A stretch of DNA of 64,000 nt from Thermococcus sp. (lineage in GTDB: Archaea; Methanobacteriota_B; Thermococci; Thermococcales; Thermococcaceae): contig NZ_JACDNS010000010.1 of NCBI RefSeq assembly GCF_017656495.1, positions 1 to 64,000 of the forward strand, given 5' to 3'. A program made the translations under genes and the position numbers. Below the pieces are notes generated by a model that did no database searches, had not been told where the DNA came from, and saw only the letters and a list, made by a program, of their open reading frames with translations. This document shows positions 26,802-54,409 of the stretch, piece after piece; position 1 is the first letter of the stretch, and each line of letters begins with the position of its first letter.

Positions 26802-27662
26802 TTGTGGTGCGGTGGCCGGGATTTGAACCCGGGTCACCGGCTTGGGAGAGCGTTAAATCTCAATGAACTGTGGAATCTTCATCAAAGGCAGTTCTCAGAA
26901 TGGCTCTCTGGTCAAGTGAGCAACTCTACAGCGAAAGACTACTTAAGCGTGCTCAATCGCTTCTTTGGTCGCTATAAGATTAGCTCATTTGAGGACCTCA
27001 GAAAGGCATTAAACGCTGAGAACTATAAGAGGAATCTTGCGAAAGCGCTCAGGAATTTCGTTAAGTATCTGTATCTGCATGACGTAATCAGCTTTGAGCT
27101 TTATGAGAAGTTTAAGGCAATCATCAAGATAAAGAAGGCAGGAGCTTCAAGGACGTTCATAACTGATGAGGAGCTGAGGGAGGCATACGGCTACTTCAAG
27201 AAGCATGGCAGAAGAGAGGAGCTGATCCTCTTCAAGCTCTTGCTCTTCAGCGGGCTAAGGCTAACTCATGCGATTAAGGTTCTCAATGAGTTTGATAGGA
27301 AAAAGCTGACGGTTCTCGGAAACATAGCAAAGTATGAGCTTTTCACTCACGAGGGGACGAAGCTTGCTTATTATGCATACATGCCTAAAGAGCTTGCTGA
27401 GGAGCTCTTCAAGTCAGATTACAGCTATGACATGGCTAAGAAGTATTTGAGGTATGGCAGAGTTACAGCAAAGAGCATTCGCAAGTGGTTCGCAACGTTC
27501 CTAATCAAGCAGAATGTTCCTCCTTCAGTCATTAACTACATTCAAGGCAGAGTCCCGCAGAAGGTCCTTGATGCCTATTATGCTGAACTGGAAAATCTTG
27601 CCGATGAAGCTTATTCTCGTGTTGTTGATGAGTTAAAGAAGGTGCTGGAGGGGTCTGAATGA
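26802..27662 (+). CDS. int: int(C): C-terminal catalytic part of the split SSV-type integrase
   Basis: Tyrosine recombinase catalytic domain with Arg in LLLFSGLRLTHA (about 153 in this frame), K-x-x-R in AKSIRKWFA (about 224-227, in place of the usual H-x-x-R) and the tyrosine nucleophile in LDAYYAELE (about 259-260). A SAM-like N domain lies near 25-95. The first 16 residues (CGGRDLNPGHRLGR) are only the antisense translation of the tRNA. An in-frame TTG at 26802 could start a truncated protein, but without the int(N) RHH-like domain it is probably inactive until excision. Its stop overlaps the next start by 4 bp. Confidence 0.9.
   Translation: MWCGGRDLNPGHRLGRALNLNELWNLHQRQFSEWLSGQVSNSTAKDYLSVLNRFFGRYKISSFEDLRKALNAENYKRNLAKALRNFVKYLYLHDVISFELYEKFKAIIKIKKAGASRTFITDEELREAYGYFKKHGRREELILFKLLLFSGLRLTHAIKVLNEFDRKKLTVLGNIAKYELFTHEGTKLAYYAYMPKELAEELFKSDYSYDMAKKYLRYGRVTAKSIRKWFATFLIKQNVPPSVINYIQGRVPQKVLDAYYAELENLADEAYSRVVDELKKVLEGSE
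26805..26848. repeat. attL, 44-bp copy carrying the 3' part of tRNA-Gly
   Basis: Identical to 54353-54396. From 26809 it holds the 40 nt of the tRNA (minus strand) running from the anticodon loop to the 3' end; the 5' half is absent, so this is a displaced tRNA fragment and not a functional gene. Identity ends where the sequence reads AGCG here and GCCG at attR. The preceding base also differs (G here, A at attR). Confidence 0.93.
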
Positions 27663-28169: not shown

Positions 28170-28303
28170 TACTTAAAATAGTTTTAGCATTCTTCCTCTT
28201 TACTTTAGCACTCGTGATGGGCTCTCTGTTTTATTTTGAGCTCTCTTGGTGGTTGGAAAGAAAAAGATGGGCTCGCAAATATGAAAAAACTTTAAGGAGG
28301 TGA
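28160..28303 (+). CDS. 47-aa single-TM protein
   Basis: ATG 28160 to TGA 28303. One long TM helix (IVLAFFLFTLALVMGSLFYF) is followed by a basic, aromatic tail (WWLERKRWARKYEKTLRR). It overlaps the previous gene by 10 bp, and its last codons (AGG AGG TGA) form the ribosome binding site of the next gene, so the spacing is that of a real operon member. Function unknown. Confidence 0.55.
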   Translation: MELVLKIVLAFFLFTLALVMGSLFYFELSWWLERKRWARKYEKTLRR

Positions 28304-28308
28304 TGAGG

Positions 28309-28515
28309 TTGGCTTCAAGAATCGGGAAAAGCGGCATTGCTTTTACGAGAGGTTTTTACATTGATGATGAGATTGAGCTTATGGTATTAGCACTTGCAAA
28401 GGCAAAGAAGTCAAATGCATCACAAGTTGTTAGAGAAAGCATTGTTGAGATGTTCAAGAAGGAGTTTGGAACAATCAACGTCAGGAAAATAGCAAAGGAG
28501 CTTGGACTCCTTTAA
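28309..28515 (+). CDS. ribbon-helix-helix DNA-binding protein
   Basis: 68 aa from TTG 28309, which lies 6 nt after AAGGAGGTG; a GTG at 28300 is too close to that site. The segment IAFTRGFYIDDEIELMVLALAKAKKSNASQVV..VVRESIVEMFKKEF has the beta strand plus two helices of an RHH fold (MetJ/Arc type). It is followed directly by four 11-bp tandem repeats containing TCTTGCAAGA-like palindromes, a natural operator for an RHH protein. It probably controls the large surface-protein operon starting at 28687. Confidence 0.65.
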   Translation: MASRIGKSGIAFTRGFYIDDEIELMVLALAKAKKSNASQVVRESIVEMFKKEFGTINVRKIAKELGLL

Positions 28516-28686: not shown

Positions 28687-28863
28687 ATGTTGGCGAAAAG
28701 GAGGGCTCAAGGCGCTTTGGAGTATCTCTTCATGGTTGCAGCAGCTCTGATAGTAATCCTGATTGTCGTCAAGATGCTGAGGGGCAAGACTGCCGAGGCT
28801 AAGGAAGTTATTGTGCAAAACAACGCAACTAAGGAGCTTCAAGAGCTTGCAAACGAAGCATGA
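28687..28863 (+). CDS. class III signal-peptide, pilin-like protein
   Basis: 58 aa. The N-terminus reads AKRRAQGALEYLFMVAAAL: a basic head, the A/Q cleavage region, the G-A-L-E-Y motif with Glu+5 and a 20-residue hydrophobic helix, as in archaeal class III signal-peptide (type IV pilin-like) precursors processed by EppA/FlaK-type peptidases. The mature remainder is short and charged. ATG 28687 follows GGAGGTGAAA. First gene of the long rightward operon. It may form a pilus or pseudopilus core, or serve as a scaffold subunit. Confidence 0.78.
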   Translation: MLAKRRAQGALEYLFMVAAALIVILIVVKMLRGKTAEAKEVIVQNNATKELQELANEA

Positions 28864-28873
28864 GGTGAAGAAA

Positions 28874-29002
28874 ATGAGCAGAAAACGGCTTGCTCGCATT
28901 AATAGGAAGCTTGAGCGCATCAGAAAAGAGCTTAATCGCCTAATGCACGAGGAAGCTCGGCTTTTGAGGATTAAAAAGCAACTGGAGGCGAAGGCCGCAT
29001 GA
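28874..29002 (+). CDS. 42-aa basic coiled-coil protein
   Basis: ATG 28874 follows GAGGTGAAGAAA. The whole protein (MSRKRLARINRKLERIRKEL... to LRIKKQLEAKAA) is one highly charged amphipathic helix with Leu/Ile at heptad positions. The next ATG (28999) overlaps its stop. It could be a DNA-binding or bridging peptide of the apparatus encoded around it; no known family. Confidence 0.55.
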   Translation: MSRKRLARINRKLERIRKELNRLMHEEARLLRIKKQLEAKAA

Positions 29003-29358
29003 AGAGCAAGAGCCTTGTTCAACTAATCCTCTTCATACTGATAGTAACATTCTTCAGTTATGTGGCTTGGGATTCTTTGACAAAAGAAGCAGCGTTCTTT
29101 GGGGCTATTGGTGGGATTACTCTTCACTGGCTCCTAACTAACAAGGGGAACAAAAACGTGATTTACATTAAACCCTTCACTGCGGGCTGGAGAGTGCTAA
29201 TTTACGACATGCTTCTTGTAGCTTGGCTTATAGCACTGTATCAACAAGCGGGAACATTCAGCGCTTTTCTGAGCTCATTGATGGCTTTGAATGAAAAGAC
29301 TGCTCTTTTGGTCGCAATTTTGGCTGGCATAATTACTGACTATGCTGCGGGAGGGTGA
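28999..29358 (+). CDS. four-TM membrane protein
   Basis: 119 aa with hydrophobic segments LVQLILFILIVTFFSYVAW, AAFFGAIGGITLHWLL, LIYDMLLVAWLIALYQ and TALLVAILAGIITDYAAGG. It overlaps the previous stop by 4 bp and stops 3 bp before the next ATG. Short loops, no catalytic motif. It probably forms part of a membrane platform with the neighbouring multi-TM proteins. Family not recognised. Confidence 0.6.
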   Translation: MKSKSLVQLILFILIVTFFSYVAWDSLTKEAAFFGAIGGITLHWLLTNKGNKNVIYIKPFTAGWRVLIYDMLLVAWLIALYQQAGTFSAFLSSLMALNEKTALLVAILAGIITDYAAGG

Positions 29359-29361
29359 GGG

Positions 29362-31281
29362 ATGAGAAGGGCGTTAAGCTTTGTTTTGGGTTTGTTGATG
29401 CTTTTGAGCATTTTAACATTGGGAACCGGCACGGTTAGTGCAGTAACAGTCGAAAGCGTTGATTTTACGACGCTTATAAGCGGTTCAGAGTTCAGCAGTT
29501 CAGTAACGGGTGGAACTTGGTATGACAGCACTAACTTTGAGTTAATATCCTCTTTAGACGCTACAATAAATATTTACCATGATGATATAGTTAATGCGGG
29601 TGTTTTAGAGGCAACACTTGGTGGATCTACTACGTATGTGAGGTTTCTATTTAAAGAGCAATTGCCGTTACCAGAAAACGCAACGGTAAAAATTACATAC
29701 AGCACTACAACAGTTGGGCAGGCTTATGCTATTGGTTTCTTAGTGGTTACAGACACAGGAGCTTATCAGGTTAATTATTATACGTATGTGGGCAGTGCAA
29801 CCGTTGAGAATGCTATACTCCTGCCAGCTCCTTATGATTATCCAGCTTATAGTGTTGCTGATGGTTTAACAGTTGGTTCTGGAATTACTGCAGAGTTTAA
29901 TCCAATACAAGTTCTGAGGGACAATGGGGTTCAAATTGACTACAGTGATGTGAGGTATATTCAAGTTTACTTTGGACTTCGTGGATATAGTACAACAATG
30001 AAGTTTTGGCTTTATAATCTGACTATAGAAGCGCCGGGGGCAACTGTAACATTTAACCTAAAAGACGCTTTAACAGGACAGAGCCTCACAGACGTAACAG
30101 TAAAAGAAGGAGATACGGTTTTGAGCACTATTGACGACGGGCAAAGCTTAGAACTCACGAAAGGCACACATACTTTAACTTTTGAAAAAACAGGCTATTG
30201 GAGCACTTCAATCACAATTGACGTTCAAAGCGATATGAGCCTTAGCGTTGAAATGTATCCAGATTCGGCAGCATTTCAGTTTTTAAACTTCCCAAGCGAC
30301 ATTCAAGTTTATGAAAACTCTATTTACGAGCTAACATTCACATTAAGCCCAATTTCAACTCAAGCAACTTACAACACCTACCTGAGCTTAAGTGGGCTTT
30401 CTGATGTCTTAGAAGTAAGAAAAGATGGACAGCTTGTTTCTCCAGAATCAGGAAAGTACTATTTGGGTGATATAAGCGGAGATACTCAAATCACAATCAA
30501 ATTTAAGGCTGGAAGCGTTGGAACACACTCACTCACAATCACTCTAACTTCAAATGACGCCATCATGAGCCAGACTTACACCACGAGCAAGCAAGTTGTT
30601 TATGAAGTCCAGCCATTGCCATTTTTCATTCAAATGCCTTCTGAGTGGACAGTCGGAACGAATGAAGTGAGAATAAGCGAGAGTTCAGGACAAAGTCTTG
30701 TGATAACTGCAGTCCTCAAGGATAGTCAAGGAAATGAAGTCTGGAGCGATTCTCACGCATTCAGTCCTTATGAGGCTTACACATTCCAGGTCAATGTTCC
30801 TGCAGAGGGAAGCTACACTTTAGAGTTCCAATTCCTTTCAACTGTTGCAGTCTTCGATGTCCAGGTGAATCCTGCAATCACACTCTTAACTGACACAATT
30901 ACAGCGAAAGAGGGAGACATTGGGACAGTTCAAGTCAGGATAAAGAACCCAAGCTCCACAATGACAAAGTATTACACGATAGTTCTGGAAGGTCCAATCA
31001 TTGAGGGCAACGTTTCAAAGTCTGTCAGCGTTGCTCCTCTTTCAGAGAAAACCGTTGATTTGGCCTTTCAAGTGCCCAATGACCTCACCTATGATGCTTA
31101 TGATTTGACCTTGAAGGTCCTTGAGGGCGATTCTGTACAGTTCCAAGATACAGTTCACCTTGTGATTGACAGCGGAGGATTCTCACTTCCCGCAATTGGT
31201 GGCGAGAGCAGTTCTTGGCTCTGGATAATCGGAGGGCTTCTGGTTCTTGGCGTGGGAATTTGGGCGTTGAGGAGGAGGTAG
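29362..31281 (+). CDS. large secreted surface protein with C-terminal membrane anchor
   Basis: 639 aa. A signal peptide (ALSFVLGLLMLLSILTLGTG) is cut before VSAVTVES. All-beta regions follow, including a PEGA/carboxypeptidase-regulatory-like module around 230-300 (FNLKDALTGQSLTDVTVKEG and LTKGTHTLTFEKTGYWSTS), and NEW1/CARDB-like repeats in the second half. A C-terminal TM helix and basic tail (SWLWIIGGLLVLGVGIWALRRR) anchor it in the membrane with the bulk outside. Similar large anchored proteins are a hallmark of the pT26-2 family as I recall it. Possible adhesin or particle coat protein. Confidence 0.7.
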   Translation: MRRALSFVLGLLMLLSILTLGTGTVSAVTVESVDFTTLISGSEFSSSVTGGTWYDSTNFELISSLDATINIYHDDIVNAGVLEATLGGSTTYVRFLFKEQLPLPENATVKITYSTTTVGQAYAIGFLVVTDTGAYQVNYYTYVGSATVENAILLPAPYDYPAYSVADGLTVGSGITAEFNPIQVLRDNGVQIDYSDVRYIQVYFGLRGYSTTMKFWLYNLTIEAPGATVTFNLKDALTGQSLTDVTVKEGDTVLSTIDDGQSLELTKGTHTLTFEKTGYWSTSITIDVQSDMSLSVEMYPDSAAFQFLNFPSDIQVYENSIYELTFTLSPISTQATYNTYLSLSGLSDVLEVRKDGQLVSPESGKYYLGDISGDTQITIKFKAGSVGTHSLTITLTSNDAIMSQTYTTSKQVVYEVQPLPFFIQMPSEWTVGTNEVRISESSGQSLVITAVLKDSQGNEVWSDSHAFSPYEAYTFQVNVPAEGSYTLEFQFLSTVAVFDVQVNPAITLLTDTITAKEGDIGTVQVRIKNPSSTMTKYYTIVLEGPIIEGNVSKSVSVAPLSEKTVDLAFQVPNDLTYDAYDLTLKVLEGDSVQFQDTVHLVIDSGGFSLPAIGGESSSWLWIIGGLLVLGVGIWALRRR

Positions 31282-31287
31282 TGAAAG

Positions 31288-31434
31288 ATGGATGCATGGG
31301 TTATTATTGACAATTTGATACGATTTGCAATCTCTCCCGGCAGTTATCTTCTAAGCATGCTCATAGGCTGGAAAGCAGCAGTTGAAGGACTCATAGGGCT
31401 GTCGGTAGTGACCATAATTATCGCAAGGAGGTGA
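31288..31434 (+). CDS. 48-aa membrane protein
   Basis: ATG 31288 to TGA 31434. MDAWVIIDNLIRFAISPGSY, then a hydrophobic stretch ending LIGLSVVTIIIARR. GTGAAAG is the only upstream ribosome-site candidate. Its last codons AGG AGG TGA make the strong ribosome binding site of the next gene, a recurrent design in this operon. One or two TM helices; function unknown. Confidence 0.5.
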   Translation: MDAWVIIDNLIRFAISPGSYLLSMLIGWKAAVEGLIGLSVVTIIIARR

Positions 31435-31438
31435 TTTT

Positions 31439-33526
31439 ATGAAAAATAAGATTTTTACTCTCTTTATTGTTTTTTCACTATTCCTGACAGTCATTCCAGC
31501 AAATACATTAGTGGCTGCAGAAGGTGACGATGGAGGAAGCATTTGGGATGTCGTTGATTACATTATCAAAGCAGCAACTTCGGGAGTAAATGTGGTTTAT
31601 GACTTGTTCACTGGTGGTCTCGAGAAAGTATGGGATAATACTTTTGGAAAACTCTTTGGGGACAATGAACCACAACCAGTTCCAGGAGCTGAGGAACAAG
31701 CAACAGAAGGAGATGTCTTAGGAGATGAAGATACTCTTGAAAACAAGAATATTGTTGAAGATGCAAATCAGCAGGCTTATCAAAAGATTGCAGAGCTCAA
31801 TGCAAAGCTAAGGAGTGATTTAGTAAAGTATGACACAAAAGAGGAAGGAGCAACAGGTGATTTATGGGCTGAAATCTATGCTCCATCAAAAGTTTATGGA
31901 TTTTCAGCCTTTCCGGTTCAAGTAAAGATCTACACAAGGAATAGTAGCATTCCATTCTCATATGTCCATATTCGCTCTGTTAATATCTACATAATCGGAG
32001 AGAGTAGCAGTAACCCTCTATGGACAAGGACATGGGACTATGGCGAAGCAGGTAGTGAAGGCTTAAACGGAGAATCTGTTGTATACAGCACAATCCTCAA
32101 GGTTCCCGATCCCTATGTTTATCAAGTTGAGCAAATGATCAGTACAGGCTCAATTTCCAAAGATTTAATTCAAGAACTCTTTAATGCCACAACAGAGTCT
32201 TGGGAAATTTATGTTGATATAGATGCATATAGAGAAATCTGGCAGAGCGACCCAAGCTATACTGACCAAACGAGCTGTGAAAACGCTGGAGGAAAGTGGG
32301 ACAGCAATACAAACACTTGTTATGTTTTCGTTAGAAATGCAGACATAAATTACAGAGTTTACACAACGTCAGCATGGAGGCACGTCACAAGAGCGAATGA
32401 TGTGGCAATTTTAGATGAAGGAATGTATGCATCTCTCCCGATTAAGTTCATTAAGACTGCAGAAGCCTCAAAGTGGGCTCTGTATCAAGAGGAATTTGCT
32501 GGTGCATTGTCAAACTTTATCATAATAACTTATGCAAATCCAGTTCATGTTGTAGGTTCAACAGCGGATTATAAGTTTTACATCGCTCCAAATCCCGGAT
32601 ACTTTGATCCAATAAACGTTACATTTACGGATGAGTTTAGATTTGCAGCAATAAGAGTTTACAAAGATGAGCATTGGGAGCTTGCAGATTCAATCTTCGG
32701 AACATTAGGCACTCTAAGTGGAGATAGCCTCGGTGTCGAGAAGCTCCTCACGGCAAGATACACTGAGGATCCTGATGCACTCACATACAAAGTCTTTGGA
32801 ATGGCACTATTCACAATAACAAGAGATGATGGAATTCCAATCAAGGTTTGGCTTGTAACAAAGCCAGACGTTTCAATTCTTCCAAACATTCGTGTGGTCC
32901 TAGATGACACTCAATTAGAACCATTGGTACAGTTTACTGAGGATGGTAAGTTCACGGAGGAGGAGATTCAGCAAATAAAGGCAACAATCAGCACTTTGAT
33001 TTCTGGATTAAATGAAAAAATCACACACGCTCAAGAGATAAAGACAAAGGCACAAAGCCTCGGGAATGATAAGGCTGAATTCTACGCTGATAAGGCAATT
33101 GATGCCTATAAAGGTGCAATTGATGCTCTTGAAAAAGCGGAATTGTCTGATGATACTCATTGGTTCCTCAACTGGCTAAATGTCGCAAAGAAATATGAGC
33201 AAGCAGGTGACTTCTACACAAGTGCTGCTGAAAAAGCCCTCTATAATGAATATGACCAAGCTGAGCTTGATGCAAAAGCTGCTGAGGATTTAATTAACCT
33301 TGCAAATCAGTATAAGCCAAGCATTTGGGCCTCATTGAGTAGCTTAGGACTTGAATGGTGGCAGGCTCTTCTGTTAATTATAGTAGCAGTAGCTCTCATT
33401 GGAGCTGGATACCTTATGTTTGGTAGGATAGGAGCAATAGTTGCAGGAGTCATCGTGGTTATTCTGTTTGGTTTTGTCTTCCTTGGAGAGTTTGCAGACA
33501 TTGTTGACAAGCTAAAGTTTTGGTGA
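31439..33526 (+). CDS. large secreted protein with two C-terminal TM helices
   Basis: 695 aa. Signal peptide (FTLFIVFSLFLTVIPANTLV). A mixed alpha/beta extracellular region carries one Cys pair (QTSCENAGGKWDSNTNTCYV, about 278-297), probably a disulfide. A helical region near 500-620 (EEIQQIKATISTLISGLNEK, tetratricopeptide-like KYEQAGDFYTSAAEKAL) comes before two TM helices (WWQALLLIIVAVALIGAGYL and IGAIVAGVIVVILFGFVFLG) and a short cytoplasmic tail. It sits between small membrane proteins in the operon. Probably a structural surface component; not recognised further. Confidence 0.65.
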   Translation: MKNKIFTLFIVFSLFLTVIPANTLVAAEGDDGGSIWDVVDYIIKAATSGVNVVYDLFTGGLEKVWDNTFGKLFGDNEPQPVPGAEEQATEGDVLGDEDTLENKNIVEDANQQAYQKIAELNAKLRSDLVKYDTKEEGATGDLWAEIYAPSKVYGFSAFPVQVKIYTRNSSIPFSYVHIRSVNIYIIGESSSNPLWTRTWDYGEAGSEGLNGESVVYSTILKVPDPYVYQVEQMISTGSISKDLIQELFNATTESWEIYVDIDAYREIWQSDPSYTDQTSCENAGGKWDSNTNTCYVFVRNADINYRVYTTSAWRHVTRANDVAILDEGMYASLPIKFIKTAEASKWALYQEEFAGALSNFIIITYANPVHVVGSTADYKFYIAPNPGYFDPINVTFTDEFRFAAIRVYKDEHWELADSIFGTLGTLSGDSLGVEKLLTARYTEDPDALTYKVFGMALFTITRDDGIPIKVWLVTKPDVSILPNIRVVLDDTQLEPLVQFTEDGKFTEEEIQQIKATISTLISGLNEKITHAQEIKTKAQSLGNDKAEFYADKAIDAYKGAIDALEKAELSDDTHWFLNWLNVAKKYEQAGDFYTSAAEKALYNEYDQAELDAKAAEDLINLANQYKPSIWASLSSLGLEWWQALLLIIVAVALIGAGYLMFGRIGAIVAGVIVVILFGFVFLGEFADIVDKLKFW

Positions 33527-33537
33527 GGTGATGAAAT

Positions 33538-34059
33538 TTGACTGATAAAAAAGAGAAAGGTCTTGGAGAAAAGGCAAGCGGTTGGTTCCTTGAAAAACTC
33601 GGCTTTAGACTAATCATTACAGGCATTATGGCACTCATCGCATGGTACGCTCAAAAGAACAGCGTCACGATAGCACAGTTTAACGCTGCCTACGCTTCAA
33701 TTCCTCTTTCAGCACTCATTCTTGGAATGGTTTTTGACTATGGATTAGATACTGGCAAGCTTTACAACAAAATGCTTGGCAGAGGCAAAAATCCAATCCA
33801 AAAGCTCACCTTTGCGATAGGAGCAGTTTTCATATTCTTCCTGGCATTCACTTGGGCCTTAGCAGGAACAATCACGCTGAATTTCGCAACAATAACACCA
33901 GCAACATTGATAGTATCAGCCTTTGTTGCCCTTGTAGTGCTTCTTCCACGTACTGGCACAAGCGAATGGCTCCTATGGCTGTGGATAGCGGAGACAATAG
34001 TGACTGGAGGAGCTCACTTGACGATACTGCTCATTGGAGTGCTTTTAGGGGGTGTTTAA
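33538..34059 (+). CDS. multi-TM membrane protein, paralogue of the next gene
   Basis: 173 aa from TTG 33538 after GAGGTGATGAAA. About four TM helices (LIITGIMALIAWYAQ, PLSALILGMVFDYG, TFAIGAVFIFFLAFTWALAG, TLIVSAFVALVVLLP) and a C-terminal hydrophobic end. The sequence EWLLWLWIAETIVTGGAHL aligns with ELILFLWLAATVATGGAYL in the next protein, and TIAQFNAAYASIPL with TVNQYVEAIASTPV, showing tandem duplication. Likely a membrane platform or pore component. Confidence 0.65.
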   Translation: MTDKKEKGLGEKASGWFLEKLGFRLIITGIMALIAWYAQKNSVTIAQFNAAYASIPLSALILGMVFDYGLDTGKLYNKMLGRGKNPIQKLTFAIGAVFIFFLAFTWALAGTITLNFATITPATLIVSAFVALVVLLPRTGTSEWLLWLWIAETIVTGGAHLTILLIGVLLGGV

Positions 34060-34060
34060 C

Positions 34061-34576
34061 ATGCAGGTACCAAAGAAGTTAAACAACGTTAATTACCTGA
34101 TAAAGCTCGTCCTCGTTGCATTCATTGGAGGCATTGTACTAAAATGGGCCACTGGTCAAAACATAACTGTCAACCAATACGTTGAGGCAATAGCCTCAAC
34201 ACCAGTTTATGTGATTATAGCAATAGAAATTCTAGACAAACTATCAGACAAAGTAGATTACGAATTCTTGGGCTTTGCTTACGGCTCAAAGTTTGGAATT
34301 AACAAAATAATCATGAGTTTGATTATTGCAGGAATTGGCTTTGTTGCAGTCCTCTATTTCATGGCTGGCACGATAGCATTCACAGTCGAAGCTTACAATA
34401 CTGGAGTACTGTTAGCAGCAGCAACTTATGCACTATACATAGTAGCTCCAGAAACTGGCGATGACGAGCTAATCTTGTTCCTCTGGTTGGCTGCAACAGT
34501 TGCAACTGGAGGAGCTTACCTGTCTAAAGCACTTAGCCTACCCCTTGCTCACCTGATACTACTCATGTTAGGGTGA
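34061..34576 (+). CDS. multi-TM membrane protein, tandem paralogue
   Basis: 171 aa. ATG 34061 lies 1 bp after the previous stop, with GGGGGTG inside the previous gene. Four or five TM helices; conserved blocks shared with the preceding protein (ITVNQYVEAIASTPVYVIIA; FVAVLYFMAGTIAF; PETGDDELILFLWLAATVATGGAYL in two parts). The pair may form a hetero-oligomer. No known family. Confidence 0.65.
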   Translation: MQVPKKLNNVNYLIKLVLVAFIGGIVLKWATGQNITVNQYVEAIASTPVYVIIAIEILDKLSDKVDYEFLGFAYGSKFGINKIIMSLIIAGIGFVAVLYFMAGTIAFTVEAYNTGVLLAAATYALYIVAPETGDDELILFLWLAATVATGGAYLSKALSLPLAHLILLMLG

Positions 34577-34582
34577 TCAGCA

Positions 34583-34924
34583 ATGCTTGGCAGGGTTGCA
34601 GCAGCTCTCGTTGTTTACATTTTATGCATCTTCGAATGGCAAGATACAGTAACTTCAGTAGGTCAGCTTTTAGGCTTGAGCGGATTTTGGGCCTTATTCA
34701 TTCCGAGTGCTTTGATTGGACTTTCGGTTTACAGAATAGCCGATTTGGACAATTGGGGAGTTTGGGATGCTGCAGCATTTCTCACAATTGGCAGTATAGC
34801 AATGCTTGCCATGACCAGCGATCCATCAGCTACCATCTACGAACTCGTGAAAGGAGTTGTTAGCTTTAGCGTTGCGGCTATTTTGGGAGCTCTAGCACTA
34901 AGAGGTGGTAAAAATGGACGTTAA
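34583..34924 (+). CDS. four-TM membrane protein
   Basis: 113 aa with hydrophobic segments VAAALVVYILCIF, LLGLSGFWALFIPSALIG, AAAFLTIGSIAMLAM and VVSFSVAAILGALAL, ending RGGKNGR. AGGGTGATCAGCA precedes ATG 34583. Its last 11 bp overlap the next gene, whose GGTGGT site lies inside it. Membrane component of the operon; no catalytic signature. Confidence 0.6.
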   Translation: MLGRVAAALVVYILCIFEWQDTVTSVGQLLGLSGFWALFIPSALIGLSVYRIADLDNWGVWDAAAFLTIGSIAMLAMTSDPSATIYELVKGVVSFSVAAILGALALRGGKNGR

Positions 34925-35156
34925 TGGGGCAATTGACGCTTTTAAAGGTGTTGCAACAGCTCATCCATATCTCGCCCTTGCAATCTTGCTCTTCATCATT
35001 GGAGCATTAATCAGAGGAAAAGCAAGCTTAGTGTTTTACATCCTCGGTGGTTTGGCGCTTCTGGAAGAGTTTTCATTGTTTGATGTGTTTGTTAGCTTCC
35101 TTAAAGACGTTCCAAGCTTGATTGATAAGCTCTTAAGCGTATTTGGAGGTGGATGA
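34914..35156 (+). CDS. small two-TM membrane protein
   Basis: 80 aa. ATG 34914 (MDVNGAIDAFKG) is preceded by GGTGGT. TM helices PYLALAILLFIIGALI and ASLVFYILGGLALLEEF, then an amphipathic C-terminal helix (VFVSFLKDVPSLIDKLLSVF) ending in triple Gly. Stop to next ATG is 3 bp. Family not recognised. Confidence 0.58.
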   Translation: MDVNGAIDAFKGVATAHPYLALAILLFIIGALIRGKASLVFYILGGLALLEEFSLFDVFVSFLKDVPSLIDKLLSVFGGG

Positions 35157-35159
35157 AGA

Positions 35160-35969
35160 ATGAGAAAGAAGGAAAGACAACTCGTGACGATTGGCCTGAT
35201 AGTTTTGTTTGGATTTATAGCATATTGGGCATATGCAGGAGGAGACATTGGCTTCATTGACCTAAACAACAACCTCAACAGCAATGAAACAACAGAGACC
35301 TACAATCTCGGAATTTCAAACCTTGTTACAACAGTCCTCGATGTTGGAGATGTCAAAATAACCTGTGAGATAGCAAACGCTGACAAATTCAACATCACAA
35401 GCGTCAAGCTCTACTACGCCTTAAACGTTGCTGATCCTGCTAACGCTACTTACACAGCAGTTTCCTTGACAGCCAATAATGGCACTTATGAGACCACAAT
35501 TGACACAAAGTTTGGAGATGTCCTCTACTACTACATTGAAATTCAATACGTTGAAAACGGCGCTACAAAGGTCTTTAGATATCCAGAGAGCGGTTATGAA
35601 AGCGTGACTGTTAGTGATGCTGTTGCTCCAACTGTAAGCAACGTTACTGTCAGCTATGACGCCAGCACCGGTAACGCTACATTCACCATTAATGCAGCAG
35701 ATAACGATGCAATTGACCACATCGTCTTATTCTACGCCATAACAGCAGATGGAAACGCTACAAGCTTTAGCAACGTTACCCTCACCACAAGCCCATACCA
35801 AGTTACTTTGACAATTGACGGAAACGTCACCGATACCACATACTACTACGTTGACTTCTACGTTGAAACCTATGACCTGAGTGGTAATTCAGTAAGATTG
35901 CCAGCGGAAGGAACATTCGAGTTCTATGCTAACACCACGCAGAGCTTAGTATTTCCACAGAGCGGTTGA
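35160..35969 (+). CDS. N-terminally anchored extracellular beta-sandwich protein
   Basis: 269 aa. An N-terminal basic head and TM helix (LVTIGLIVLFGFIAYWAYAGG) act as signal anchor. Two tandem Ig/fibronectin-like beta domains follow (SVKLYYALNVADPANATYTA and HIVLFYAITADGNATSFSN share the same strand pattern, with matching TTIDTKFGDVLYYYIEIQY and LTIDGNVTDTTYYYVDFYV strands). Many N-x-S/T sequons suggest glycosylation. The stop lies directly before a hairpin that covers the next start. Confidence 0.65.
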   Translation: MRKKERQLVTIGLIVLFGFIAYWAYAGGDIGFIDLNNNLNSNETTETYNLGISNLVTTVLDVGDVKITCEIANADKFNITSVKLYYALNVADPANATYTAVSLTANNGTYETTIDTKFGDVLYYYIEIQYVENGATKVFRYPESGYESVTVSDAVAPTVSNVTVSYDASTGNATFTINAADNDAIDHIVLFYAITADGNATSFSNVTLTTSPYQVTLTIDGNVTDTTYYYVDFYVETYDLSGNSVRLPAEGTFEFYANTTQSLVFPQSG

Positions 35970-35994
35970 GGAGGGCTGAGTTTTGAAGCCCTCC
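35970..35994 (+). promoter_or_regulatory. hairpin enclosing ribosome binding site and TTG start
   Basis: GGAGGGCT (35970-35977) is perfectly complementary to AGCCCTCC (35987-35994), giving an 8-bp GC-rich stem with a 9-nt loop that holds the TTG start codon (35983-35985). The left arm is the ribosome binding site of the next gene. It begins 1 nt after the previous stop codon, so a terminating ribosome could open it: a likely translational-coupling switch. No U-run follows, which argues against a terminator. Confidence 0.6.
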
Positions 35995-36462
35995 CACTCT
36001 AACCCTTCTTTTGGACGAGTGATAGCGAAGATTTTCGCCATAGTTAGCTTAATTTTTTTGCTTTACTTCGCTCATTCGACATTCGCCGAGAACGAGCTTC
36101 AAAAACGCTTATACGAGCTTGGCTATCCCACTGAAGGCTTCATCGTTGTGAACAATACAATGAAGTTTGCTGATGGGCACATTGTACGCTTTGAAGGAAA
36201 TTACGTTGAGACTTACCCAATAACGGCTCAAGAGGCTCTAAACCGACTAAACAATTACCTTGCAGAATACAATCTCAAGCTCAAGAAGTACAACATGAGA
36301 ATTGAGCCTGAAATCAAAAGCATGAGCGAGAAAGAAGAAAATGGCAAGCTGTATTGGGTTTTTGAGCTCTACATCAAGAAAGGCTCCTCGAAATTCTTTG
36401 CAGGTTTGGCTTATGTGGAGCGTAAGGAGGGCCTGATCAAAATCAAAGGGCTTTTGGATTAA
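35983..36462 (+). CDS. secreted/anchored protein of unknown function
   Basis: 159 aa from TTG 35983 (MKPSHSNPSFGRVIAKIF). The hydrophobic segment IFAIVSLIFLLYFAHSTFA is a signal peptide or anchor; the rest is an alpha/beta domain (ELQKRLYELGYPTEGFIVVN; AQEALNRLNNYLAEYNLKL; final two-strand hairpin FAGLAYVERKEGLIKIKGL), reminiscent of PepSY-like folds. Translation start is inside the loop of a hairpin. Function not recognised. Confidence 0.58.
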   Translation: MKPSHSNPSFGRVIAKIFAIVSLIFLLYFAHSTFAENELQKRLYELGYPTEGFIVVNNTMKFADGHIVRFEGNYVETYPITAQEALNRLNNYLAEYNLKLKKYNMRIEPEIKSMSEKEENGKLYWVFELYIKKGSSKFFAGLAYVERKEGLIKIKGLLD

Positions 36463-36472
36463 GGTGAGGAGA

Positions 36473-36916
36473 ATGAGGGGAGTTTTAAGCATATTATTGC
36501 TTATTGGCTTAGTAATAGCTTCAGCAGGTTGCATAAGGCAAGAGGGTGGAGCAATCATCCTAAACTTTGGAAATGAAACCTACACTTTCACTCTTCCTGA
36601 GAACCAAACCAACACAACTACGACCACAGCACCAGGTCAAGAGGAGCCGCAGGAATATGTGTATGAAAAGACCGTTGAAGTTGGGCAAAAACTAACCATT
36701 TTAGAGCTTAATTTTGAAATTGCACCAGATTATGACGCCACAGAGGGTAAATTCTTCTTTGTAACTACAAACGGAGTCTATTGGGAGCCGATGAACATCA
36801 CAGTTGACAATGTGAGTATTCTTGGCGAAGGATATTGGGTTGGAACAACCACGTATGTTGCCAAGATTACGATAGCCTCACTAACACCACTCACCATCGA
36901 GGTGACTACAAAATGA
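36473..36916 (+). CDS. archaeal lipoprotein
   Basis: 147 aa. Signal sequence MRGVLSILLLIGLVIASAGC has a clear lipobox (ASAGC), so Cys20 is likely lipid-modified after cleavage. A Thr-rich linker (TNTTTTTAPGQEEP) leads to a beta domain with WVGTTTYVAKITIASLTPL. ATG 36473 follows AAGGTGAGGAG; the GTG at 36464 lies inside that site. The beta domain parallels the domain of the next protein (both contain VGQKL / VGDKL strands), suggesting related folds. Surface component of the element's apparatus. Confidence 0.65.
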   Translation: MRGVLSILLLIGLVIASAGCIRQEGGAIILNFGNETYTFTLPENQTNTTTTTAPGQEEPQEYVYEKTVEVGQKLTILELNFEIAPDYDATEGKFFFVTTNGVYWEPMNITVDNVSILGEGYWVGTTTYVAKITIASLTPLTIEVTTK

Positions 36917-37728
36917 AGCGCTTTTTCCTAATATTCATTATAATATTAACAGGAACATTAAGCCTCGTATCAGCAACATACTCCTGGACTGGAAAGCTGA
37001 ATGTTGGAGATAAGCTCTACGTTAATGAATTAATAATTCAAATTGATAAAAATAAAGCTGATAACAGAACAGCAGCAATAGTCTATCAAGGAAACCAGCT
37101 GTTGGGTTTAGTCTATGCTGGAGATTCTGACATCTTTGAAGGGCTCGAAATCAGCGTCACAAGATTCAACGATTATGTGCTTCTAAGCATCTTGAGTGAG
37201 GAACCATTCACAATAAGCTTCAATGCAACCGAAGACTACCCCGCAGAGATTAACAGACTCAAAGAGGAGAATGGAAAGCTGGAGCAAGAGAATGAACAAC
37301 TGAAAAAGCAAGTTGAGCAACTGACCAATGAGAACAAGCAGCTAAAGAGGAGAATCTCTGACCTTGAAAAGCAGCTTTCCCAAGCAAAAGCCCAAGACGT
37401 TTCTAAGCTCCAAGTGCAGATAAACAACCTCACAAAAGAGAACAGAGAGCTGAAAGCCCAAATAGCAAATCAAACAAACCTCATTAATCAGCTTAAAGCT
37501 AAAGCAAAATTTTTAGAGGATCAGAATAATGAGTACAAAAGTTTAATCACAAAACTTCTCGAAGAGCAGGCGAAGAAAAGCGAACAAGAGTACATCGAGA
37601 AAGCAAAGAAAGAGCGCTTAATTGGTTCTATCATCATAAAGAGCCTTATTCTTGGTGGAATTGTTGTTGGGATAGTTGGCTATGGGCTTTACAGGAAAAA
37701 GAGAAGTTGGGAGCATGCCGGCCTATAA
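36913..37728 (+). CDS. secreted coiled-coil protein with C-terminal TM anchor
   Basis: 271 aa. Signal peptide MKRFFLIFIIILTGTLSLVS; a beta domain (SWTGKLNVGDKLYVNELIIQ to EPFTISF); then about 110 residues of unbroken heptad-rich coiled coil (RLKEENGKLEQENEQLKKQV, followed by further E/Q/N/L repeats); then a TM helix (IIIKSLILGGIVVGIVGYGLY) and basic tail. This is a stalk-like architecture projecting from the membrane. ATG 36913 overlaps the lipoprotein stop (ATGA). Last gene before a 134-bp gap. Confidence 0.7.
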   Translation: MKRFFLIFIIILTGTLSLVSATYSWTGKLNVGDKLYVNELIIQIDKNKADNRTAAIVYQGNQLLGLVYAGDSDIFEGLEISVTRFNDYVLLSILSEEPFTISFNATEDYPAEINRLKEENGKLEQENEQLKKQVEQLTNENKQLKRRISDLEKQLSQAKAQDVSKLQVQINNLTKENRELKAQIANQTNLINQLKAKAKFLEDQNNEYKSLITKLLEEQAKKSEQEYIEKAKKERLIGSIIIKSLILGGIVVGIVGYGLYRKKRSWEHAGL

Positions 37729-37862
37729 TTCACCCAAATCGTAAAAGGAAGTTAAGAGGTGATAAAGGAAAATAAAGGAAGCTGAGTTCATCTTTTACGG
37801 AGTAGTATAGTTTTTTGTTTAAAATAAAGAAAATCGAGAACGAAAGAGGAGGATCGGGTTAA
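37729..37862 (+). promoter_or_regulatory. intergenic control region upstream of the ATPase gene
   Basis: 134 bp without an ORF. CGTAAAAG (37740-37747) and CTTTTACG (37792-37799) form an 8-bp inverted repeat around a purine-rich stretch with three AAAGGAA copies. TTTTTTGTTTAAAATAAA at about 37811-37828 combines a T-run that could end the upstream message with a TATA-like GTTTAAAAT. GAGGAGGATC (37846-37855) is the ribosome site for ATG 37863. The ATPase operon may therefore have its own promoter. Confidence 0.45.
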
Positions 37863-39287
37863 ATGGCAGTATCAATAAAAGTAGCACCACAGGAAGAAAT
37901 TGAGGTTCCTTACTTTAATCCACGTAGCGGACCATATCTTGGCAGACTCATGAATACAAACAAGAAAGAGAAGCTTTATATTCCTCTGAAGGTTGGAGAA
38001 GCAAACCACATCTTCATGCTCGGCAGAACGGGCTACGGTAAAACCTCAACAATGAAAGCACTCGCTGAGGCAATATGGATTTACTATCATGAAGTGCTTC
38101 ACAAAGAAGTCATGATAATCATTTTCGAAAGAAAATATGATTACTCAAAATATCAGAGACTAAAGCAGTTTTGGCAGAGAAGAGTTCAAGAAATGGGAAT
38201 TGCGGAGGCAAGAAAAAGACATCCCTTCCTTGCCCAATATTTCGAGATACAAGAAAAGCATCCACAGCTCAAGCACATGCTTGGCTTTCCTGGAGACTTT
38301 GCAATGGGCCTCCCAAACTACATCCTCATGGACACCTACATCTCAAAGAAGCCATATCCTGTTGATATATTCACATGGCATGGGTTGAAGCCAAGAAGTT
38401 ATCCAACGAGAAGGATAGTATTCAGACCAACGAGGAACATCTACGCAATAAAGCTTGACAATGGGCCAGATACAGAGGTTGTCGAGGGGAAAATTCATCT
38501 AAAAGATATCAGTTTTGAAATGCTTGCAAAGAAATTTGACATTCCCCAAGGAACAGCTTATGGAAGAATACTCAGAAAATACTGGAAAGTTTACAAGATC
38601 CACGATCCAGATGAAATCCTGCGGTTAGTCCAAGCCCAAGAACCAATTAGAGAAAGCACTCTTGAAAGCCTCAGATCAATCCTTGACGAAATAAAAGCGG
38701 ATCCGTTGTACCTTAAAGGCAAACTAACGAAAACAGGACAAGAGCACAAACCCTTCACTGAGTACCTTACAACAGATAAAATCAATGTCATTGATTTTTC
38801 TGATAATTCCGATTTAGACCTAGAAGAGCAGAGGCTGATAGTTTACCTGCTGTGGAAAAAGCTCAAAGTAATAGCAGGAAAGAAGAGGGTGGATATCTGG
38901 ATATTCTTTGATGAGATACAGGATTTAACTGGAACAGCAGGCGAAGCTTCAAGACACAATCTCGCTTGGCTGGCAATGGAAGAACTCTACAGAAAAGGAA
39001 GAAGTCTAAGCGTCAATGTGGTTGCTGGAACCCAATACCTCTACAAGCTCCCAATGTCGCTGATAATGGGTGCAACTCACATAGCAGTAATCGGAGCCCT
39101 TGCAAGCCCAAAAGACCTGGACATTCTAAGAGTCGCCATAATGGATGGTGACAAACTAAACATTCCAATTGAGCATGACAGCTTTGAAGAGTTTGTAAAA
39201 CGCAAAAAGAAGAAAGGAAGAGGCTGGTTTTCTTTTGATAGAGAATTTACGGTTAAAATGTATTTTCGGCCAAATCAAAGCTTTTGA
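37863..39287 (+). CDS. HerA/VirB4-like P-loop ATPase
   Basis: 474 aa. Walker A GRTGYGKT (54-61) follows the family-typical strand HIFMLGRTGYGKTSTMKALA; Walker B is DIWIFFDEIQDL (about residue 350); an arginine-finger/sensor region follows with RKGRSLSVNVVAGTQYLYKL, as in HerA/FtsK and conjugative TraD/VirB4 ATPases that pump DNA through a hexameric ring. No TM segment is visible. A HerA-like ATPase is a core gene of the pT26-2 family as I recall it. It would power DNA packaging or transfer through the membrane apparatus encoded upstream. Confidence 0.82.
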   Translation: MAVSIKVAPQEEIEVPYFNPRSGPYLGRLMNTNKKEKLYIPLKVGEANHIFMLGRTGYGKTSTMKALAEAIWIYYHEVLHKEVMIIIFERKYDYSKYQRLKQFWQRRVQEMGIAEARKRHPFLAQYFEIQEKHPQLKHMLGFPGDFAMGLPNYILMDTYISKKPYPVDIFTWHGLKPRSYPTRRIVFRPTRNIYAIKLDNGPDTEVVEGKIHLKDISFEMLAKKFDIPQGTAYGRILRKYWKVYKIHDPDEILRLVQAQEPIRESTLESLRSILDEIKADPLYLKGKLTKTGQEHKPFTEYLTTDKINVIDFSDNSDLDLEEQRLIVYLLWKKLKVIAGKKRVDIWIFFDEIQDLTGTAGEASRHNLAWLAMEELYRKGRSLSVNVVAGTQYLYKLPMSLIMGATHIAVIGALASPKDLDILRVAIMDGDKLNIPIEHDSFEEFVKRKKKKGRGWFSFDREFTVKMYFRPNQSF

Positions 39288-39298
39288 GGTGGTGAAAG

Positions 39299-40054
39299 AT
39301 GGGAATATTTGACAGATTTAGGAAAAAGAAGACAAAGAGAGAAGTTGGCGGAATTGTAATGAGTGATGAAGAAGCCGCAAGCTACTTTATGAGCCTCAAA
39401 GAATTTGACCTCGAAGAGGAAATTGAGAAAAGAGTTGAAGAAAGAATCAAACAACAGAGAATTTTAGCCCAAAGAATGAGTCAAATCAAGCCCACCTATC
39501 AAAAGCTCCTAATAGCTGTAACTCCAGACGAAGGTAGCGTTATTCTTGGCTATCCTGAAAGCTACATGATAAACTATGACGAGTACTGGATCTATTACCA
39601 AGAAAGACCACCAAGCTGGCTTGATTCAATTTGGTGGAGCTTGGCAAGATTCTTTGGCAAGCAGCCACCACATAAAGTTCTCAAAGCTCACAAGAAGATA
39701 GTGCAGTTCAACAATGAAACAATCACAGTTTACTGTCAATCTGTTACAGAGTATAGGGGAACAGGAATACAAGAAGCTATTCCAATGGTAGTTCATCCGG
39801 CCATCACAGCAGGTTGGGAAGCTTACGAGGCAGTGAAAGCTGAAAGAGATAAATACAAAGAAAAGTACTTTGAGCTGCTAAGACTGAGCAAGAAAGAAGT
39901 GGAGTTAGCGTTGCAAATTAATCCAAGAGTCAAGGTGTATTGGAAAGAGAAAGAACAGCAAGGTAAAAAGACTGAGGAGAGATTTGGGGGAACAGAAATG
40001 GAGTTTGAAGAGAATCCAATCAAACGTGAGCTGAAAAGCATTATAGGAGAGTGA
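39299..40054 (+). CDS. conserved soluble protein of the ATPase operon
   Basis: 251 aa, no signal or TM. N-terminal FDRFRKKKTKREVGG is basic; a helical charged stretch (EFDLEEEIEKRVEERIKQQR) comes next, then a central alpha/beta part with PDEGSVILGYPESYMINYDE and RPPSWLDSIWWSLARFFG, and a C-terminal coiled coil (EAYEAVKAERDKYKEKYFEL). ATG 39299 follows GGTGGTGAAAG, 11 bp after the ATPase stop. It probably acts with the ATPase as an adaptor. Family not recognised. Confidence 0.6.
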   Translation: MGIFDRFRKKKTKREVGGIVMSDEEAASYFMSLKEFDLEEEIEKRVEERIKQQRILAQRMSQIKPTYQKLLIAVTPDEGSVILGYPESYMINYDEYWIYYQERPPSWLDSIWWSLARFFGKQPPHKVLKAHKKIVQFNNETITVYCQSVTEYRGTGIQEAIPMVVHPAITAGWEAYEAVKAERDKYKEKYFELLRLSKKEVELALQINPRVKVYWKEKEQQGKKTEERFGGTEMEFEENPIKRELKSIIGE

Positions 40055-40067
40055 GAAGGTGGAACTC

Positions 40068-40355
40068 ATGGACCAGAACAGCAGCAATCCAGAGGAGCTC
40101 TTAAAGCAGATCGCAAGCCAAGAGTTCAGAGAAGTTGCAGAACCAGTTGAGGAAGTTGGAGAGAGCAAGAAAGAGAAGAAAAAGAGCTCATGGGGATTGA
40201 AGAAAAAGAAAGAACTAAATCAAGAGATTTTGAAAGAGATTCAAAAGAAATTGAGTGAAGCATGGGAGCTCATGGGGACCGAGTATGGACGCAAACTCAT
40301 CGAAGACGTTGCAGTTGAGATAAAGAAACTCTGCATCATCAACGATTTGCCATGA
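40068..40355 (+). CDS. small charged helical protein, last gene of the apparatus operon
   Basis: 95 aa. Acidic N-terminus, a Lys-rich linker (ESKKEKKKSSWGLKKKKEL) and a C-terminal helical region ending VAVEIKKLCIINDLP. ATG 40068 is chosen over GTG 40059 because AAGGTGG sits 5 nt upstream. A mutated copy of its C-terminal end lies at 46054-46107. A T-rich run follows. Function unknown. Confidence 0.58.
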   Translation: MDQNSSNPEELLKQIASQEFREVAEPVEEVGESKKEKKKSSWGLKKKKELNQEILKEIQKKLSEAWELMGTEYGRKLIEDVAVEIKKLCIINDLP

Positions 40356-40396: not shown

Positions 40397-40439
40397 AAAT
40401 TTAAATACAATTGTATTACAATTGTATTTGGTGAGATTA
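40397..40439 (+). promoter_or_regulatory. toxin-antitoxin promoter with two TACAATTGTA palindromes
   Basis: AAATTTAAAT (40397-40406) is a TATA element. Two perfect 10-bp palindromes TACAATTGTA lie at 40406-40415 and 40417-40426, spaced 11 bp so they face the same side of the helix. They overlap the expected transcription start, the classical site for autorepression by an RHH antitoxin. GGTGAG at 40429-40434 is the ribosome site for ATG 40440. Confidence 0.72.
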
Positions 40440-40763
40440 ATGGCTCAAGTTGTAGAGTCTCCAGTCTCAGTGAGACTTCCAAAATACATAATCAGGAAGA
40501 TAGATGAACTCGTAAAGGAAGGTGAATTCAAAAGCCGCTCTGACTTCATCAAATACGCCGTAACACTAACACTTGGACAGATAATGATGGAGAAAGCGAG
40601 AGAAAAGGCGAAAACAATCACACCAGAAGAAGCTAAGGCGAGATCAAGGCAAGCCCTTCAGAAACTTCTAACTGAGGAGATCGAAGACGAATGGTCAGAG
40701 CTCAAGAATATTCTCGAAGATGTTGACAGGAAGTGGAAGGGGCTCAAAGGTGCAAAGAAATGA
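40440..40763 (+). CDS. RHH (CopG-like) antitoxin
   Basis: 107 aa. The N-terminal ESPVSVRLPKYIIRKIDELVKEGEFKSRSDF... stretch is a textbook ribbon-helix-helix: VSVRLP strand, two helices and the SRSDFIKYAV turn. The C-terminal half is charged and helical and would wrap the toxin. ATG 40440 has GGTGAG upstream; two palindromic operators lie in the promoter. Its stop overlaps the toxin start (ATGA), so the pair is co-translated. Type II system that could stabilise the element in the host. Confidence 0.85.
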   Translation: MAQVVESPVSVRLPKYIIRKIDELVKEGEFKSRSDFIKYAVTLTLGQIMMEKAREKAKTITPEEAKARSRQALQKLLTEEIEDEWSELKNILEDVDRKWKGLKGAKK

Positions 40764-41200
40764 AGCTCGTCATGGACACCAACGTTGTCCTAGCTGCCAT
40801 GATAAAACCAAAAGGCTTAGCTGCTCTGCTCATAGAGCTCCTTGACAAAGAGCACTTTATCAATTATACCAGTCCAGAGGCCTTGGAGGAGCTCCAAGTT
40901 AAGATGGCGATCTTAGAGGAGGAAAGAAAGCTGAGCGAAAATTGGCTACAAGTGCTTGCAAATTTCCTTTATGGAACAGAAATCGTTAAGCCAAAAGAGC
41001 ACTTCAACCTCTGCCGTGATGAGGACGACAATAAATGGCTTGACATTGCCTATGAGGCAAAGGTCCAAGTAATTCTAACATGGGACGATGATCTACTGGA
41101 TCTAAGAAATGACAAGAAAGTCTTGCAACTTAAGAACCATCAAATTAAAATCCTTAGACCAATAGAATTCCTGAAAGAAGAATTAAGAAAGAGATGTTAA
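40760..41200 (+). CDS. PIN-domain toxin ribonuclease
   Basis: 146 aa. PIN acidic residues: Asp in KLVMDTNVVLAAM, Glu in TSPEALEELQ, and Asp residues in DDNKWLDIAYEA and VILTWDDDLLDL. This matches the putative TA toxin PIN family (COG1569 type). It would cleave RNA with Mg2+ when not bound by the RHH partner. ATG 40760 overlaps the antitoxin stop by 4 bp. Convergent with the next gene. Confidence 0.85.
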   Translation: MKLVMDTNVVLAAMIKPKGLAALLIELLDKEHFINYTSPEALEELQVKMAILEEERKLSENWLQVLANFLYGTEIVKPKEHFNLCRDEDDNKWLDIAYEAKVQVILTWDDDLLDLRNDKKVLQLKNHQIKILRPIEFLKEELRKRC

Positions 41201-45477: not shown

Positions 45478-45498
45478 CTAAACCACCACAAACGTTAG

Positions 45499-45518
45499 TT
45501 ACGTTACGTAATTATTAC
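45499..45518 (-). promoter_or_regulatory. promoter palindrome shared with the 48406 operon (copy 1)
   Basis: TTACGTTACGTAATTATTAC contains the near-palindrome TTACGT-T-ACGTAA and the palindrome GTAAT-A-ATTAC (minus-strand reading). ACGTAATTATTACT (45506-45519) recurs exactly at 48455-48468 upstream of the other leftward accessory operon. It lies 22-42 nt upstream of ATG 45477, overlapping the expected TATA region of this weak-looking promoter. Confidence 0.6.
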
Positions 45519-46052: not shown

Positions 46053-46053
46053 T

Positions 46054-47236: not shown

Positions 47237-47287
47237 AAACTCCCCCGAGTGTTGTTGTATGGAAAATAGTATAAAAACATTTATGGT

Positions 47288-48406: not shown

Positions 48407-48448
48407 TGCAAACCACCACTCAAAATGCATTGTTTTTCCTTAAATAAT

Positions 48449-54136: not shown

Positions 54137-54409
54137 ATGGAGGAATCCTCCACAAACTCCATTAAAAATAGGGGCTCTCATTCAAGAGGAAAGCGCCAGA
54201 AAAGTCGAAAGAAAGACGTTCACATCACGCTTGATAGTGAGGTGGTCGGTGTCATGGAGAGGATGAACATTAACAAGTCGGAATTCTTCAACAGCGTTGC
54301 GAGATGGGTGTTTTTGGGTGAAGAAATTCCAGAAATTATTATAAGATTAGAATGGTGCGGTGGCCGGGATTTGAACCCGGGTCACCGGCTTGGGAGGCCG
54401 GTGTCCTAG
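54137..54409 (+). CDS. int: int(N): N-terminal part of the split integrase
   Basis: 90 aa. A basic head (RGSHSRGKRQKSRKKD) and an RHH-like domain (DVHITLDSEVVGVMERMNIN, then KSEFFNSVARWVFLG) form the N-terminus of the SSV-type integrase. It runs into attR, where WCGGRDLNPGHRLGR is the antisense translation of the tRNA, and stops within the tRNA 5' half. Joining it to int(C) at the 44-bp repeat keeps the frame and gives 357 aa. TATATAGTATTATGG upstream holds a plausible promoter. Confidence 0.88.
   Translation: MEESSTNSIKNRGSHSRGKRQKSRKKDVHITLDSEVVGVMERMNINKSEFFNSVARWVFLGEEIPEIIIRLEWCGGRDLNPGHRLGRPVS
54353..54396. repeat. attR, 44-bp copy inside the intact tRNA-Gly gene
   Basis: Identical to 26805-26848. 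It extends from 4 bp beyond the tRNA 3' end through the T arm, variable region and anticodon stem to the anticodon loop. The element therefore carries the tRNA 3' half as attP within int, and integration at the right restores a complete tRNA gene. Confidence 0.93.

Follow-up and report, generated by a model that had tools for sequence, protein, structure and literature searches.

The window analysed here is a 64,000-nucleotide stretch of contig NZ_JACDNS010000010.1, part of a 2.05-Mb Thermococcales genome (Thermococcus sp.), and its rightward operon at 28687–40355 is the core module of an integrated element that is a new member of the pT26-2 family. This family is defined by seven core genes, t26-5, -6, -7, -11, -13, -14 and -15 (Badel et al. 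2019, PMC6972569), and all seven are present in the window in order with 32–63% identity to pT26-2. In a protein-by-protein comparison with pT26-2, t26-1, -2, -4, -5, -6, -7 (two copies), -8, -9, -10, -11, -13, -14 and -15 were found in order. The synteny from t26-4 to t26-15 is kept, and the sole absentee is t26-12, an opposite-strand open reading frame (ORF) in pT26-2. The whole module could be identified because the product of the gene at 31439 carries three T26-6p Pfam domains (2e-56, 1e-47 and 3e-42) and matches PDB 2WB7. A tblastn search with the ATPase retrieved pT26-2, pGE2 and pMEFER01.

The element measures 27,548 bp between its attachment (att) sites (26805–54396), which form an exact 44-bp direct repeat at its two ends. 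Its int(N) and int(C) parts rejoin in frame to give an integrase of 357 aa, compared with 352 aa in pT26-2. Thermococcales members of the family carry a type I integrase split at attP, with att within a tRNA 3' end (PMC6972569), and in the window we likewise found a split type I integrase, a 44-bp att and a tRNA-Gly target. The element therefore shares with pT26-2, pGE2, TKV2/TKV3, TGV1, PHV1 and pMEFER01 the seven core genes and their order, the split SSV-type integrase inside a tRNA 3' end, the 27.5-kb size and the Thermococcales host. It differs from the family in an extra class III pilin gene, which two other elements also have, and from pT26-2 itself in a tandem t26-7 and a lipoprotein gene, both common in the family, and in a motor cassette of another lineage, the ATPase being 37% identical to t26-14p.

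The original prediction, made from the sequence alone, had described a tight rightward operon of about 17 genes. The operon is real and its coordinates are right, but 16 genes were counted, and while most gene starts were correct, those placed at 28811 and 36835 are better set at 28874 and 36913. Spacing is minimal as described (−53 to +13 nt), with two wider gaps, 157 nt upstream of 31439 and 134 nt upstream of the ATPase gene. Its class III signal peptide, multi-transmembrane (TM) proteins (by TM scan), anchored products of 29362 and 31439 (each with an N-terminal hydrophobic signal and a C-terminal TM), lipoprotein, coiled-coil stalk with a C-terminal TM and HerA-domain ATPase were all borne out. 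The statement that few of the genes have a recognised family was nearly right, the exception being the T26-6p domains of 31439. The module is not of an undescribed kind, as had been supposed, because the pT26-2 core module has been known since 2009–2010.

Table 1. Genes and sites of the integrated element, in window coordinates
Feature	Position	Strand	Evidence
int(C), C-terminal part of split SSV-type integrase	26802..27662	+	46% to t26-1; PF16795 1e-46
Left attachment site, 44 bp	26805..26848	.	Exact direct repeat of 54353-54396
t26-2-like small protein	28300..28515	+	41.5% identity, 2e-13
Class III signal-peptide pilin, accessory	28687..28863	+	PF04021 1.3e-7
Small coiled-coil protein, t26-3 position	28874..29002	+	Position; similar short ORFs in loci L043, L052
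t26-4 homologue, multi-TM	28999..29358	+	52% identity; TM scan
t26-5 homologue (core): anchored stalk, hypervariable N-terminal head	29362..31281	+	63% to t26-5 from residue 184 on
t26-6 homologue (core)	31439..33526	+	Pfam T26-6p domains; PDB 2WB7 8e-135
t26-7 homologue copy 1 (core)	33538..34059	+	32% to t26-7
t26-7 homologue copy 2, tandem duplicate	34052..34576	+	37% to t26-7
t26-8 homologue, small multi-TM protein	34583..34924	+	72% identity
t26-9 homologue, two-TM hairpin with basic turn	34905..35156	+	69% identity; alignment
t26-10 homologue, N-terminal anchor, beta-rich ectodomain	35160..35969	+	42% identity
t26-11 homologue (core), N-terminal TM, alpha+beta domain	35983..36462	+	56% identity
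Lipoprotein	36464..36916	+	Also found at 15 related loci
t26-13 homologue (core): beta domain, coiled coil, C-terminal TM	36913..37728	+	38% identity
Intergenic region before motor cassette	37729..37862	+	134-nt gap; inverted repeat inside
t26-14 homologue (core): HerA-class ATPase by predicted fold	37863..39287	+	PF01935 1e-9; AlphaFold2 model matches HerA structures
t26-15 homologue (core): putative adaptor of the motor, with coiled coil and beta domain	39299..40054	+	39% to t26-15
t26-16-like third motor-cassette member	40059..40355	+	Distances correlate with those of the ATPase (0.94)
int(N), N-terminal part of split integrase, running through att site	54137..54396	+	In-frame join with int(C)
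Right attachment site	54353..54396	.	3' part of tRNA-Gly(ccc), tRNA at 54353-54430 (-)

We compared the family across 28 elements. When pairs of Thermococcales elements were compared, the distances of t26-14, -15 and -16 correlated at 0.94–0.97 among themselves (0.95 for t26-14 with t26-15, 0.94 for t26-14 with t26-16), whereas the correlation of t26-14 with every other core gene tested was 0.21 or less. The t26-14+15 tree was incongruent with the t26-10+11+13 tree; the membrane-gene data rejected the window-type motor clade (approximately unbiased test, p 9e-93) and the motor data rejected the grouping of the two elements of genome G024 (p 3e-98). These two elements (L032 and L038), probably TKV2 and TKV3 of T. 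kodakarensis, make a motor swap visible within one genome, since their DNA is 96% identical over 8.8 kb, ending ∼110 nt before the end of t26-13, but their ATPases are only 40% identical. While published core-gene trees were described as congruent, the incongruence of motor and membrane genes found here concerns exchange inside Thermococcales. Judged by distances and trees, t26-14, -15 and -16 are inherited as one cassette that is phylogenetically uncoupled from the adjacent membrane genes, and the simplest inference from this co-inheritance is that t26-15 and t26-16 are partners of the motor.

The exchange point adjoins a long gap upstream of the ATPase, which was 120–167 nt in all of the 28 elements. 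In the window, this gap contains the inverted repeat CGTAAAAG (37740–37747) / CTTTTACG (37792–37799) with 44-nt spacing, a pair that occurs nowhere else in the 2.05-Mb genome. A widely spaced inverted repeat was found in the gap of most motor lineages, each with a lineage-specific sequence (among them ACTGCACA/TGTGCAGT, TTGTGCGA/TCGCACAA and TCACGCAACA/TGTTGCGTGA); tested against shuffles of each sequence, significance was modest, p being 0.005–0.1 in the better cases, and many were not significant. Mean column identity of the gap was 80% among five elements, while synonymous sites of the neighbouring genes differ by ∼50–70% from two of those five. The covariation term of RNAalifold for the motor leader was only −0.1 to −2.2, so the inverted repeat may act as RNA or as DNA, and the gap could be an operator or promoter, a leader RNA, or a site of DNA loading or transfer. 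The pre-ATPase gap of pMEFER01 (L058 1331–1510) holds two direct copies of AAGTGTTACA and no inverted repeat.

The ATPase scored above the PF01935 cut-off and, in the alignment, carries the Walker A motif GRTGYGKT and the Walker B motif DEIQ. The AlphaFold2 (AF2) models of the ATPase and t26-15 were built from 7–8 sequences (seven for the ATPase), and the ATPase model has a core of good confidence, with residues 1–48 below a predicted local distance difference test (pLDDT) score of 50, leaving the N-terminus without a confident fold. In a Foldseek search of the model against PDB, the best 44 matches were all of the HerA family, headed by T. kodakarensis HerA-NurA (4e-8) and followed by the coupling protein TrwB, and VirB4 was absent from the 50 matches listed. 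The CedB model scored the ATPase at 14.7 bits against a cut-off of 700. Membership in VirB4 or CedB was thus rejected on both profile and fold, and the ATPase is HerA-class by its predicted fold; the label 'VirB4-like' in the original prediction was not specific. With the HerA hexameric DNA translocase it shares the central HerA domain and the predicted HerA-NurA fold, but identity is 10–14%, no N-terminal HAS-barrel region was modelled with confidence, and t26-15 and t26-16 stand beside it instead of a NurA partner, none being recognised among the module genes scanned with Pfam. For t26-15, a PRC-barrel adaptor was suggested by Foldseek, several of whose best matches were RimM and reaction-centre H chains (best E 0.035), but profile searches did not confirm it and it counts as no more than a hint. 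In one ATPase lineage (L047–L054, alignment A1), the last Walker A glycine is lost (GPSGFQKT, GFWKT and GFRKT against the usual GK[TS]) while Walker B is intact.

The t26-5 protein has a conserved stalk (median identity 72%) and a head of ∼170 residues, located at about residues 30–205 in the window protein. The heads of 25 sequences fell into 12 blast clusters that are mostly unrelated, and elements with 85–89% identical stalks can bear unrelated heads. One head type was common to the Thermococcales loci L052 and L055 and to Methanocaldococcus pMEFER01 (33% over 145 aa), in contrast with the statement that cores never cross between Methanococcales and Thermococcales; the pMEFER01 gene with this head lies at L058:6724–8583 (-). 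Such head variation is the pattern of recognition modules. As far as we found, the modular exchange of motor and head and the boundary repeat are apparently undescribed in the literature examined, which did not include Soler 2010, Catchpole 2023 and Keller 2009.

Compared with their two nearest relatives, the core genes had ratios of non-synonymous to synonymous substitution (dN/dS) of 0.02–0.2, which are rough values because synonymous sites are near saturation in several genes, and they indicate purifying selection. The window t26-14 and t26-15 are 90–96% identical to those of an element in another genus (G012), whose host proteins are only 64–69% identical to those of the window's host, indicating that core genes moved between genera. 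As far as we found, this selection and this movement had not been described either. The family was found patchily, in 26 of the 94 Thermococcales genomes.

The pilin gene at 28687 is an accessory gene and not a core gene, because it is found in only three Thermococcales elements while all 94 Thermococcales genomes contain matches to it. Of the family loci compared, G078 (L046) alone has a homologue at the same position, and the third copy, 95% identical, lies in an element fragment of G091 (C127, L060). This fragment of a second element contains the near-identical pilin with the t26-2 and t26-4 region and a different integrase. The original prediction had included a pilus in the apparatus, and a pilus machine built round this pilin would fit its class III signal peptide, which is genuine, and its place immediately before the core operon. 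However, seven class III pilin genes above the cut-off, 28687 included, were counted in the host genome, and a Pfam scan of the module genes recognised no PilB-type ATPase or platform family. With the rarity of the pilin among elements, this largely refutes the pilus machine as a general explanation, and we regard it as highly improbable.

In the remainder of the module, the t26-6 homologue has two Ig-like domains, a helical domain and a C-terminal TM pair, and two t26-7 copies occur in about half of the family loci compared. One beta domain is common to the lipoprotein and t26-13 (hhalign, 97% probability). A VirB8-like assignment of t26-11 was unsupported, with only a weak PepSY hint (0.02, in 2 of 18 members), and t26-9 found no sequence support as VirB2/CedA1 or as the capsid hairpin of spindle viruses, its two matches being designed coiled coils. 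Just after the motor cassette, a ribbon-helix-helix gene followed by a PIN-domain gene (40422–41200) is probably a toxin-antitoxin pair. The variable part of the element includes an Mrr-like restriction endonuclease domain (PF13156; 43568–44170, -). Three large leftward proteins of 345, 381 and 380 aa (44440–48430, -) were all below Pfam family cut-offs, and no replication protein was recognised among them. Just before int(N), at 53555–54082, lies a second tyrosine-recombinase C-terminal domain, a short one (PF00589 4.6e-5).

Taken as a whole, the module most probably serves to carry the element's own DNA from one cell to another. The original prediction of an apparatus that spans the membrane and uses an ATPase as its DNA pump is, apart from its pilus, the most reasonable reading and agrees with the literature (PMC6972569); the general idea of transfer is not new, because Badel et al. 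(2019, PMC6972569) already proposed a role in DNA/protein transfer for the family. In the mechanism that we propose, t26-4 to t26-13 would build a membrane and surface complex, with t26-7, -8, -9 and -11 as its membrane part and t26-6, t26-10, t26-13 and the lipoprotein as an outer scaffold, and t26-5 would be a long anchored stalk whose exchangeable head may bind glycans of the partner cell or S-layer. Double-stranded plasmid DNA would be pumped through or into this complex by t26-14, a HerA-type ATPase working as a ring and tethered to the membrane by t26-15 (through its basic N-terminus and coiled coil) and t26-16. A more specific proposal joins a t26-14/15/16 pump cassette and its own cognate inverted-repeat site to a membrane scaffold with swappable heads for partner range, unrelated to type IV secretion systems (T4SS) except in the motor superfamily. 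We consider this version rather unlikely; in it, the upstream inverted repeat would be a loading or transfer-origin-like site. Several points weigh against transfer of DNA by the module. Experimental transfer of any pT26-2-family plasmid was not found in the literature read, no relative of VirB4, VirB6 or VirB2 was detected, and no relaxase family was recognised among those element proteins that were scanned; euryarchaeal conjugation without a recognised relaxase is known (PMC12857230). The T. gammatolerans proteome contained only three proteins of its element (PMC2718504), which in our reading of the locus numbers lie downstream of the ATPase, outside the membrane module. Of the two structure models, that of the ATPase reaches medium confidence (pLDDT 68.5) and that of t26-15 is weak (predicted template modelling score 0.46).

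As for the route, we lean slightly towards a vesicle or particle over cell contact because of the analogy with haloarchaeal plasmid-vesicle elements (PMC10818511). It is quite possible, if short of an even chance, that the module is virus-like or forms plasmid vesicles, with core proteins coating budding particles (t26-5 and t26-6 as spikes; t26-4, -7, -8 and -9 in the membrane) and t26-14 packaging DNA. By description, the haloarchaeal pR1SE-like apHPVs (PMC10818511) combine beta-rich and lectin-like proteins that are anchored, further proteins of the membrane and a single ATPase resembling HerA/VirB4/TrwB, an architecture similar to the anchored spikes, small multi-TM proteins and single NTPase of the window, but there is no direct sequence conservation (PMC6972569) and their subtilase (ORF7) was not recognised in the window core module by Pfam. 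The interchangeable heads are typical of receptor-binding proteins. The spindle-shaped Thermococcales viruses PAV1 and TPV1 also have hydrophobic hairpin proteins and variable surface lectins (PMC12934983), but no sequence match was found, in collections that did not contain PAV1. The ATPase matched phrog_7035 (3e-26), an unnamed family of viral proteins (969 positions), and a terminase model (1e-7), and its AF2 model matched three proteins below E 0.001 among viral structures, one of them named HerA-like; its fold is nevertheless closer to cellular HerA than to packaging ATPases. None of the other core proteins searched had a notable PHROG match, no capsid or structural protein of a known virus was matched by sequence, and a viral origin was rejected after two IMG/VR scans returned no relative and tblastn of the ATPase against 50,697 phage records no match.

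Contact-dependent, conjugation-like export related to the archaeal T4SS-derived systems (Ced/Ted, pT33-3) is possible but more doubtful. Ced/Ted and the VirB4/VirB2 systems share with the module a motor of the HerA/VirB4 superfamily, small membrane proteins and the general idea of DNA passage; TrwB follows HerA in the fold search, t26-9 has, in our own reading, the general shape of a VirB2/CedA1 pilin, and conjugation was proven for another Thermococcus plasmid according to PMC12857230, citing Catchpole 2023. Sequence profiles nevertheless recognised no CedA/VirB6 or CedA1/VirB2 relative in the module, those of t26-9 and t26-7 matched no T4SS chain in PDB even at E 10 (a relationship at the level of structure is still possible), and the low CedB score, the lack of VirB4 among the listed fold matches and the undetected relaxase also argue against it. 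Retention of core genes in integrated elements whose replication genes are gone, and the slower growth of T. kodakarensis after deletion of TKV2 or TKV3 (both PMC6972569), would suit a domesticated surface or secretion system that is useful to the host and no longer moves DNA. Given the intact att repeats, the integrase that rejoins in frame, the recent movement between genera and the patchy distribution, we consider domestication improbable.

Both Thermococcales and Methanococcales carry the pT26-2 family widely, and its mode of spread was posed as a question in 2019. Our comparison yields testable parts, namely a motor that can be exchanged whole, a candidate site of DNA or RNA beside it, and heads as possible determinants of partner range. 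If double-stranded DNA is indeed transferred by a HerA motor, the module would pass genes between archaea by a route separate from the known T4SS-derived systems.

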